In this document: in pieces, positions 35,155 through 38,302 of the stretch
How the letters are laid out: each line of letters starts with the position of its first letter
Numbering within the stretch: the stretch's first letter is position 1
Assembly: GCA_016197185.1 (NCBI GenBank)
Contig: JACPWH010000168.1
Coordinates: forward strand, 1 to 39,226
Reading direction: 5' to 3'
Length of the DNA: 39,226 nt
Source of the DNA: Ignavibacteriota bacterium
GTDB taxonomy: Bacteria; Bacteroidota; Ignavibacteria; Kapaibacteriales; UBA961
Program-made: the position numbers and the translations under genes
The notes under the pieces: generated by a model
The model's input: only the letters and a program-made list of their open reading frames with translations
What the model was told of the DNA's origin: nothing
The model's database searches: none

Positions 35155-36468
35155 TTATTTTGACCCGGTACCCATACCTTTATTCAAAGCAGTCATCACA
35201 ATTCTTCCCAATTCATTTGCAATTTCACCATTCAGGTTATTCGGATTAGATAGGAATTCAGTAACCGCTTGGTTCACTTTTGTTTTGATTAAATCTGAAT
35301 TACCTTCTACTAATGCAACCGACATTTTGTGCATATCTTTCGATACATCCTCAAGAGTATCTAATTGATTGCGGCTTGCATCTTCCATTTTCTTGAGCAT
35401 TCTATCCATGCGTTCTTCTTCTTCTGTATAAACAAGAGTAAACGCAAGCAAAGCAAGCATCGAACCTTCGAGGAAGATAGCACCCAAAATCAATGACGGA
35501 CGCGTAGGAGGAATAAATTTCAAACCACGAATACCAATCACGATAATAAGAATAGCAGCCCCGAAATACGCAAGCCCTGTAACATTGTTTGAGTATTTTT
35601 CTGTGAAGTGATGTGACATATAAAGGCGCAATCCTCTCAAGAATTTCAAACGATTGCGTGTATAGGACTGTGCTTCTTTCGTGTCAATGATTTCTTTCAT
35701 CACAAAATCAGAGAAGAATTCTTTAATTCTAAGATATAATACTTCATTACGAAATTCAACTATATCAGTATTATCATCAAACATATTGCTAAATTTAATT
35801 CCTTGCTTACCTGTTACGTCTTCTTCAGGTTCTGTTCTGTCCCAAACATATCTAAATACTTTCGCAACATGCTCTCGATCCATACCTTCAAGTTGGTTTT
35901 CGTTGTTGGTAAGAACCTCGATAATCTCATTATTAAATCCGGTTTGAAGACGAATTTTCGATTTAGTATGGACAATTTCTCTATCTACTTTGAAAGCCAT
36001 AAATCCGATAGCAGAAGGGAAAATCAAGGTAAGGAGCATTGATATACATCCTCCGAAAACCAATGCAAGAATTGAAAAACCCAAAATTGGTTGGAGAACA
36101 ATTGCCTCTTCGCCTAATTTAGGTGCTTTCACAATCCATTCATCGCCTTTTTTGGAGTAACCGTCCCTTGATTCAGTACGGGGGTTATTGGTAAAGTCGA
36201 ATATGTATTCAGTATTGATAACACCTTTTAAAGCTCCGCCTTTTTGAAACTTTCCGGCTTCTTGTCCGGGCATCGCAATTACACCGTCAAAATGCCCTAT
36301 TTCTTTTTCTCCTTCCGGCTTGAAAAGTGCTACAACAGCACCTTCTACAGCTCTCGGGATTATAAAACTATAGAATACATACGATACCGAAACCAATAAA
36401 CCCAATAGCACTAAGTAATGTTGCAAGCCATGTTTATAGGTATGTCTTTTTGCATCTTTGGGAGCCAT
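35155..36468 (-). CDS. Uncharacterised four-helix membrane protein with coiled-coil tail
   Basis: This 437-residue protein has predicted membrane segments at about 17-38, 126-158, 297-314 and 324-347. Between the first two is a soluble, probably periplasmic domain (about 40-120, with GHFDGVIAMPGQEAGKF). Between the second and third is a cytoplasmic region (about 160-295). After the last membrane helix comes an amphipathic coiled-coil stretch (EEEERMDRMLKKMEDASRNQ, about 348-385) and a helical end. I recognise no family. The two distant membrane pairs with cytoplasmic bulk and a coiled coil are loosely reminiscent of sensor or motor-stator-like proteins, but no diagnostic motif supports that. 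It is monocistronic, divergent from the lat leader region, with its own terminator. Confidence 0.7.
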   Translation of the reverse strand: MAPKDAKRHTYKHGLQHYLVLLGLLVSVSYVFYSFIIPRAVEGAVVALFKPEGEKEIGHFDGVIAMPGQEAGKFQKGGALKGVINTEYIFDFTNNPRTESRDGYSKKGDEWIVKAPKLGEEAIVLQPILGFSILALVFGGCISMLLTLIFPSAIGFMAFKVDREIVHTKSKIRLQTGFNNEIIEVLTNNENQLEGMDREHVAKVFRYVWDRTEPEEDVTGKQGIKFSNMFDDNTDIVEFRNEVLYLRIKEFFSDFVMKEIIDTKEAQSYTRNRLKFLRGLRLYMSHHFTEKYSNNVTGLAYFGAAILIIVIGIRGLKFIPPTRPSLILGAIFLEGSMLALLAFTLVYTEEEERMDRMLKKMEDASRNQLDTLEDVSKDMHKMSVALVEGNSDLIKTKVNQAVTEFLSNPNNLNGEIANELGRIVMTALNKGMGTGSK

Positions 36469-36646: not shown

Positions 36647-36654
36647 TAATTTTG
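36647..36654 (+). promoter_or_regulatory. Candidate -7 box (TAATTTTG) upstream of the lat leader
   Basis: TAATTTTG followed by TAG matches TAnnTTTG. It ends 7 bp before ATG 36662, so transcription would begin almost at that ATG and the short leader frame would be leaderless or nearly so. No convincing -33 element is visible. Confidence 0.5.
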
Positions 36655-36661
36655 TAGTGTT

Positions 36662-36811
36662 ATGAGAAATAAAACCCTAACTGCATCGCCTTCGCTTTCT
36701 TCGCATGGAACTATCCGTGGAGGATCGTTTTTAAGTGGGTTAAAATTGAAGAAGGCTCTTCTTGCCTGCCTTCACCGTTCTTCTGCTGTCCCCGCAATAG
36801 TTTCCCCGTAA
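36662..36811 (+). CDS. Putative 49-residue leader peptide upstream of lat
   Basis: ATG 36662 to TAA 36809-36811 encodes 49 residues: MRNKTLTASPSLSSHGTIRG, then GSFLSGLKLKKALLACLHRS and SAVPAIVSP. It is rich in Ser (9), Leu and Lys/Arg, and has no family I recognise. A promoter-like box ends 7 bp before it. Its stop codon falls inside a hairpin followed by six Ts. This promoter, short ORF and terminator layout directly ahead of an amino-acid metabolism gene is what a translation-coupled attenuator looks like. A small standalone peptide gene or chance frame is also possible. Confidence 0.4.
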   Translation: MRNKTLTASPSLSSHGTIRGGSFLSGLKLKKALLACLHRSSAVPAIVSP

Positions 36812-36821
36812 ACTATTTTTT
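36796..36821 (+). terminator. Putative attenuator/terminator hairpin ahead of lat
   Basis: AATAGTTT (36796-36803) and AAACTATT (36810-36817) form an 8-bp stem with loop CCCCGT. A T run at 36816-36821 follows. The stem is A/T-rich, so it is a modest terminator. It overlaps the stop codon of the 49-residue frame and lies about 140 bp before the lat start. Confidence 0.5.
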
Positions 36822-36958
36822 GACGAGCATTCACTGTATTGTCGTATCAGACTCAATTCTTGCACTGTTAAGACAGATTTTTTCTTCTGACCTTACATAC
36901 TGTGCAGAATGAGATTCTTCTTAGCATTCTAAACTTAAACTTTCAAAGGAATTTCTCT

Positions 36959-38302
36959 ATGTCATCTCTAACTTACAAACCACGCTATTCCGTACTTCCG
37001 GAAGATGTACTCTCAGAACTCAACACCCGTATGCTTGTGGACGGATTTGATTATGTTTTAGATTTAGCCGGAAGCAATGCAGCCAATCTGATAGACGCAC
37101 GCACAGGTAATCGTTATCTCGATTTTTTTACCTGTTTTGCGTCCACTCCTGTTGGGATGAACCATCCGGCAATGATAAAGCCTGATTTTTTGGACTACCT
37201 TGGGCGAATAGCTGTCAACAAACCCTCCAATTCCGATATTTATTCAGAAGCAATGGCTACTTTTGTAAAAACGTTCTTTACTGTTGCCGTTCCGTCTGAA
37301 TTCAAATATGGTTTCTTTGTAGAAGGTGGCGCACTCGCAATCGAGAATGCTCTCAAAGTTGCCTTTGATTGGAAAGTCCGTAAAAACTTTGCAAAAGGGT
37401 ATATTGCCGAACGAGGTCATCAAATTTTACATTTTGCCAGAGCTTTCCACGGTAGAACAGGCTATACAATGTCTCTTACCAATACAGACCCCACTAAAAC
37501 TAATTTGTATCCTAAATTCAAGTGGCCAAGAGTTCACAATCCCTCTATAAAATTTCCTTTGGATGAAAATAATCTTGCTCAAGTAATTGCCGAAGAGCAA
37601 CTGTCTATCGCCCAAATCAAACAGGCATTCATTGATAACCGCGATGATATTGCTGCCATTATCATAGAACCAATTCAAGGTGAAGGGGGCGACAACCATT
37701 TCCGTCCTGAATTCTTTGCAGAGCTACGCAAACTTGCAGATGAGAACGAAGCACTGCTGATATTTGATGAAGTACAAACAGGAGTCGGATTAACAGGCTC
37801 AATGTGGGTACATCAACAATTCGGCACAACTCCCGATATTATGGCATTCGGCAAGAAAATGCAGGTTTGCGGCATTGTTGTTACAGATAGAATTGACGAT
37901 ATTCCAAACAATGTATTTCATACTTCAAGCAGAATCAACTCCACATGGGGAGGTAATTTAGTAGATATGGTTCGAGCAACGAAGTATCTTGAAATTATCG
38001 AAGAAGAACAATTATTATCTCATGTTCAACGCGCCGGACACTTGCTCCAAAGTCACTTTAGCAAATTAACAGCCGAATTCCCTACTATTATTTCAAATGC
38101 CCGTGGACGAGGACTATTTGCAGCATTCGACCTCCCAAATGCGGATTATCGGAAAGCATTTCTATCTAAGTGTTTTGAGAAAGGGTTGATAATTCTCGGA
38201 TGTGGCGAACGTTCTGTTCGTTTCCGTCCTGCGCTTAATCTGACTGATGAGAACTTGCATGAAGGTATGGGGATAATTCATTCAGCTTTGGAAGGGATGT
38301 AA
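36959..38302 (+). CDS. lat: L-lysine 6-aminotransferase
   Basis: The 447-residue class III PLP aminotransferase matches the Lat family. It transfers the epsilon-amino group of lysine to 2-oxoglutarate, giving allysine (which cyclises to piperideine-6-carboxylate) and glutamate, an entry step of lysine degradation. Signatures: FTCFASTPVGMNHP, FVEGGALAIENALKVAFDWK, the AFHGRTGYT segment, EPIQGEGGDNHF, ALLIFDEVQTGVGLTGSMW, and the Schiff-base lysine in FGKKMQVCG at residue 300, the position used by the mycobacterial enzyme. The frame extends upstream to a GTG at 36902. ATG 36959 has AAAGGA nine bases upstream and the usual family length, so I prefer it. A leader module precedes it. Confidence 0.93.
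   Translation: MSSLTYKPRYSVLPEDVLSELNTRMLVDGFDYVLDLAGSNAANLIDARTGNRYLDFFTCFASTPVGMNHPAMIKPDFLDYLGRIAVNKPSNSDIYSEAMATFVKTFFTVAVPSEFKYGFFVEGGALAIENALKVAFDWKVRKNFAKGYIAERGHQILHFARAFHGRTGYTMSLTNTDPTKTNLYPKFKWPRVHNPSIKFPLDENNLAQVIAEEQLSIAQIKQAFIDNRDDIAAIIIEPIQGEGGDNHFRPEFFAELRKLADENEALLIFDEVQTGVGLTGSMWVHQQFGTTPDIMAFGKKMQVCGIVVTDRIDDIPNNVFHTSSRINSTWGGNLVDMVRATKYLEIIEEEQLLSHVQRAGHLLQSHFSKLTAEFPTIISNARGRGLFAAFDLPNADYRKAFLSKCFEKGLIILGCGERSVRFRPALNLTDENLHEGMGIIHSALEGM

Follow-up and report, generated by a model that had tools for sequence, protein, structure and literature searches.

A peptide-conserved short reading frame, latL, directly upstream of the lysine 6-transaminase gene lat in an Ignavibacteriota lineage: a candidate regulatory leader peptide

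Upstream of lat, the gene for L-lysine 6-transaminase, in a 39,226-nucleotide stretch of DNA from an Ignavibacteriota bacterium (the window), we identified a 49-codon reading frame, here called latL, that is tied to lat in relatives and conserved at the level of its amino-acid sequence. Across this group of uncultured bacteria the peptide measures 45 to 50 residues and is strictly conserved. From comparison of these sequences, latL very probably gives lat an undescribed switch or small protein partner, and we consider it fairly likely, at a probability of roughly 0.6, that the peptide regulates lat in cis, as a leader whose amino-acid sequence does the work. The elements of the locus are as follows.

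36647–36654, + strand: −7 promoter box TAATTTTG of the Bacteroidota type TAnnTTTG, 7 nt 5′ of the latL ATG (36662).
36662–36811, + strand: latL, predicted leaderless leader-peptide ORF MRNKTLTASPSLSSHGTIRGGSFLSGLKLKKALLACLHRSSAVPAIVSP, 49 codons plus TAA (36809–36811).
36707–36736, + strand: codons of the conserved core GTIRGGSFLS, in which G, T, I and the second G are invariant (n = 52 non-redundant peptides).
36776–36793, + strand: SSAVPA codons, corresponding to the conserved end [ST]S-x-[IL]-P, which keeps a constant spacing of 28 residues to the core.
36796–36821, + strand: A-U-rich hairpin and U run spanning the latL stop codon, lineage-specific.
36812–36958, + strand: latL–lat spacer, pyrimidine-rich with C over G (its own C–G skew is 0.18).
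36867–36896, + strand: imperfect inverted repeat GTTAAGACAGA...TCTGACCTTAC within the spacer, from the alignment of family loci.
36946–36950, + strand: Shine-Dalgarno-like AAGGA of lat; 48 of the 60 loci with a leader have an SD-like site before lat.
36959–38302, + strand: lat, L-lysine 6-transaminase, 447 aa (TIGR03251).

The identity of Lat is given by a match to TIGR03251 at 644 bits (cut-off 521). A preliminary description of this DNA had already named the box, the ATG, the 49-codon frame, the hairpin that takes in the stop codon and has a U run, and lat, and all of these are found at the coordinates above; the ribosome site that it ascribed to lat itself is likewise present, in the form of the AAGGA that precedes the gene. 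On the minus strand, 5′ of latL-lat, lies a divergent gene for a 437-aa protein (35155–36468), for which no significant Pfam or NCBIfam match was found.

The distribution of latL was followed with a peptide query over 41 genomes and then with an alignment-based search over the order to which the source belongs (123 genomes). Relatives were found in 85 of the 123 genomes and in 41 of 51 genera. Each genome carries one convincing copy, the weak case among the 85 being G030 (E 0.01). A class-wide search added five genomes, all from a single family (f16) of another order, and a sample of 395 genomes from the phylum yielded no further convincing case. Three matches outside lat loci (L124, L138 and L139) were inspected and set aside as chance-like. 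The LatL encoded by one contig, L120, titled Desulfobulbaceae bacterium CROMO_A_116, hardly differs from the one in Ignavibacteriae HGW-Ignavibacteriae-1 (L121), and for this reason the contig's bin or title is probably mislabelled.

All 62 distinct latL peptides are encoded on the same strand as lat and directly upstream of it, with an intervening spacer of 39–300 nt (median 107) in the 60 loci that were measured, the other two being placed by contig coordinates; in the genomes searched, no latL turned up apart from lat. Of the matches in the order, those fetched were read for this linkage, and the others were compared with lat coordinates where both were listed. The neighbour at 35155–36468 is kept upstream in 38 of 56 loci, and in the 18 where it was not found latL remains beside lat. 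The enzyme gene is more widespread than the frame: 245 of 294 genomes of the class carry lat, two families of the order (f2 and f6) have lat without the peptide, and no similar short frame was seen in 15 other lat upstream regions of the class. In two f2 genomes that lack latL (L026 and L029), a TAnnTTTG box stands 4–6 nt before the lat ATG, so that lat itself looks leaderless there.

The same kind of box marks the start of latL. Among the 62 distinct relatives, 26 have a perfect TAnnTTTG (6/6) within 22 nt of the start codon, compared with 1 of 181 background windows further upstream, and the gap from box to start is mostly 3–7 nt; the start codon is ATG in 58 and GTG in four. The pairing of a −7 box with an ATG at the expected transcription start, noted earlier from this one locus, thus recurs in relatives far beyond chance. 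These positions fit a leaderless start across the group, with the transcript predicted to begin at or beside the latL ATG. Because the frame is tied to lat across most of the order despite changes of neighbour, is absent from some families without loss of the enzyme, appears leaderless, and is followed by an untranslated spacer of variable length, we favour a cis-acting leader as the reading of this locus.

Substitution patterns indicate that selection is acting on the amino-acid sequence of LatL. Over 17 related pairs the pooled pN/pS is 0.17 (pN 0.067, pS 0.40), and in a ten-codon core a single non-synonymous change was counted across all 17; the comparison with relatives that the preliminary description had proposed finds the frame conserved as a peptide. 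Constraint spans the whole length of LatL, with dN/dS mostly between 0.04 and 0.3. In the GTIRG codons, positions 1 and 2 are nearly invariant and position 3 is free, so that GGA, GGT and GGC, all of ACT, ACA, ACG and ACC, and five different Arg codons occur. By its sequence, latL qualifies as a conserved upstream ORF and candidate leader peptide, being a short frame 5′ of one gene that is conserved at the peptide level. A hairpin within the GTIRGGSF codons was considered as an RNA element and rejected, since it is present in some species but the third positions that would pair differ in the source.

The 52 non-redundant peptides follow the pattern M-R-x-[KR]-T-L-x-A-[NS], a variable stretch, G-T-I-R-G-G-S-F-[LI]-S, a further stretch, and [ST]-S-x-[IL]-P. 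Within the core, G, T, I and the second G are present in 52 of 52 and R and F in 51, and between core and end L or I is common at offsets 13, 17, 18 and 21 and K or R at 14. Proline falls at offset 28 from the core in 30 of the 52 peptides, as against four or fewer at any other single offset, and the stop codon follows at offset 29–30 in 31. This distance is still 28 in family f8, where the N-terminal spacer is several residues longer. AlphaFold, run with 39 relatives, returned a single confident predicted helix at residues 21–41 (mean pLDDT 69, pTM 0.40) and predicted no structure for the N-terminal half. A membrane peptide was also considered and discarded, as the C-terminal part is hydrophobic in only some species and not in others such as L116 and L123.

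Because constraint covers the whole peptide, a small protein of the lat operon that works together with Lat, acts on it, or has a role elsewhere in the cell is a serious alternative and the main rival, to which we give a real if minor chance of being correct. The low dN/dS along the full length, the confident helix and the strict co-occurrence with lat are all as such a protein would have them; yet no copy was found away from lat in the genomes searched, the long and variable spacer (39–300 nt) is not operon-like, and half of the molecule is predicted to be without structure. The leader reading has its own points on either side. It is favoured by the fixed spacing from core to proline, the separate SD site of lat, the C-over-G spacer, the presence of Rho in 38 of 41 relatives and the precedent of TnaC. 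Against it stand the conservation over the whole peptide, which goes beyond what many leader peptides need, a core lying 23–28 residues from the presumed stall site, the existence of certain relatives that lack P28 or run past it, and the modest size of the spacer skew.

Since it is the amino-acid sequence that is conserved, the data argue for a nascent-peptide or peptide mechanism rather than for the counting of codons against a hairpin. Lysine codons in the frame come no closer to a run than one adjacent pair, and the pair is not conserved in relatives; the earlier remark that there is no obvious lysine-codon run holds. By its sequence, latL lacks the run of cognate codons of a classic amino-acid attenuator. 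A classic transcription attenuator, in which the position of the ribosome on the short frame would control an intrinsic terminator hairpin, does have in its favour the source hairpin (AAUAGUUU/AAACUAUU, 36796–36817; −4.1 kcal/mol, z −2.9), which has a U run (36816–36821) and overlaps the latL stop codon. The hairpin is weak, with one G-C pair, and a standard terminator scan passes over it. In the sister species G001 (Lat 85% identical) latL ends four codons sooner and there is no hairpin, and in G002 the hairpin is weakened, its U run being broken. Across 57 leaders, terminator-like sites number 21 against 14.7 expected from shuffles, scattered with no common position, in a search that required two G-C pairs and so left the one-G-C hairpin of the source uncounted.

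Sequence comparison thus indicates no conserved intrinsic terminator before lat. With the hairpin missing from G001, the U run broken in G002 and terminators near chance overall, an intrinsic-terminator attenuator is at best a local variation, and as an explanation of latL, given also the absence of a cognate codon run and the freedom of third codon positions, we regard it as very unlikely. The conservation of the hairpin, which the preliminary description had put forward for comparison, did not bear out. Of its attenuator proposal, the leaderless short ORF and the linkage to lat stand, with a regulatory leader the likeliest reading, and the intrinsic terminator as a working part falls away.

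We also considered translational attenuation, in which the leader RNA would mask the lat ribosome site and a ribosome stalled on latL would free it. RNA that spans the final 60 nt of latL and the spacer does have slightly more stable folds than its shuffles (mean z −0.97, s.e. 0.23), and lat has an SD site of its own to be masked, but shuffling the leaders leaves accessibility from this SD to the start codon unchanged (mean z 0.11, s.e. 0.17, n = 42), and we judge this explanation to be highly improbable. The inverted repeat at 36867–36896 is retained within the genus and partly in other members of the family (TTAAGACA...CCTTAC), and could be a protein-binding site or an RNA hairpin.

The composition of the spacer would permit another route. 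Its C–G skew has a group mean of 0.24 (last 20 nt excluded). The region 5′ of the promoter has 0.04, and genomes that lack the leader show 0.07 and 0.12 ahead of lat, so that leader spacers are only modestly higher than these. A rho match above the family cut-off was found in 38 of the 41 genomes of the relatives search. The source assembly (92.7% complete) has no rho gene above this cut-off, which is most likely an assembly gap. A C-over-G spacer together with Rho in relatives permits, and does not prove, a TnaC-like Rho readout at latL, which by analogy is plausible.

Under the leader reading, the following sequence of events can be proposed. Transcription would start at or next to the latL ATG, set by the −7 box, and a constrained peptide of about 45 residues would be translated first, followed by the spacer and then by lat from its own ribosome site. 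The nascent LatL chain, with GTIRGGSF, the predicted helix and SSxIP at fixed spacing, would pause the ribosome near the end of the frame upon a signal, and ribosome position would then decide whether transcription continues into lat, perhaps because a paused ribosome, as in TnaC, shields a pyrimidine-rich stretch where Rho would load. Lysine, or a compound of the lysine pathway, is the first candidate for the signal, a plausible guess from the function of lat alone. Such a mechanism would not count lysine codons against a conserved intrinsic terminator. In its most specific form, LatL would be a new arrest peptide, started from a leaderless mRNA, that senses lysine or a derivative; GTIRGGSF would be its sensor, carried by a helix inside the ribosome tunnel and separated from the stall site by about 28 residues. 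This we offer tentatively, as a doubtful proposal.

Several known systems bear comparison. In the tna operon of E. coli, TnaC stalls with a proline before the stop codon and has a Rho site downstream (PMC8429421). Like latL, it is a short ORF before an amino-acid breakdown gene, with conserved residues spread along the peptide and a proline near the stop (PMC8429421), likenesses that the C-over-G spacer and the presence of Rho in the lineage extend on the latL side. However, we saw no sequence similarity between the two: LatL has about 45 residues and TnaC 24, the LatL core lies 28 residues from the proline, the start is leaderless, and arrest, ligand and Rho use are candidate properties of LatL. 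In gammaproteobacteria, SpeFL is described as a nascent peptide that senses ornithine, a basic amino acid, and has separate sensor and effector parts (PMC8429421); it too shows no evident sequence similarity and belongs to a different gene and phylum, and for LatL a mechanism of this kind is putative. Leaders of the trp/his attenuator type resemble latL in that a short ORF precedes a gene of amino-acid metabolism and, at this locus, a hairpin with a U run follows, but differ in that latL has no cognate codon run, its hairpin is not conserved and selection acts on peptide rather than codons.

LatL matched no Pfam, NCBIfam or Rfam family. The best Rfam hit, RF02422, was rejected at 26.8 bits against a cut-off of 45 and in antisense orientation, and the PDB matches are weak, covering 14 residues of 'Cake' proteins. 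In the open literature, neither a lat leader peptide nor the motif GTIRGG turned up in any paper; as coverage was partial, by 'undescribed' we mean not found within the open literature searched.

To our knowledge, the natural peptides recognised so far as amino-acid sensors on the ribosome are few. latL is a directly testable candidate for another, strictly conserved, linked to a single gene, apparently leaderless, and placed before a lysine-catabolic enzyme in an uncultured Bacteroidota lineage. More broadly, selection at the peptide level can reveal regulatory upstream ORFs that terminator-based searches miss.
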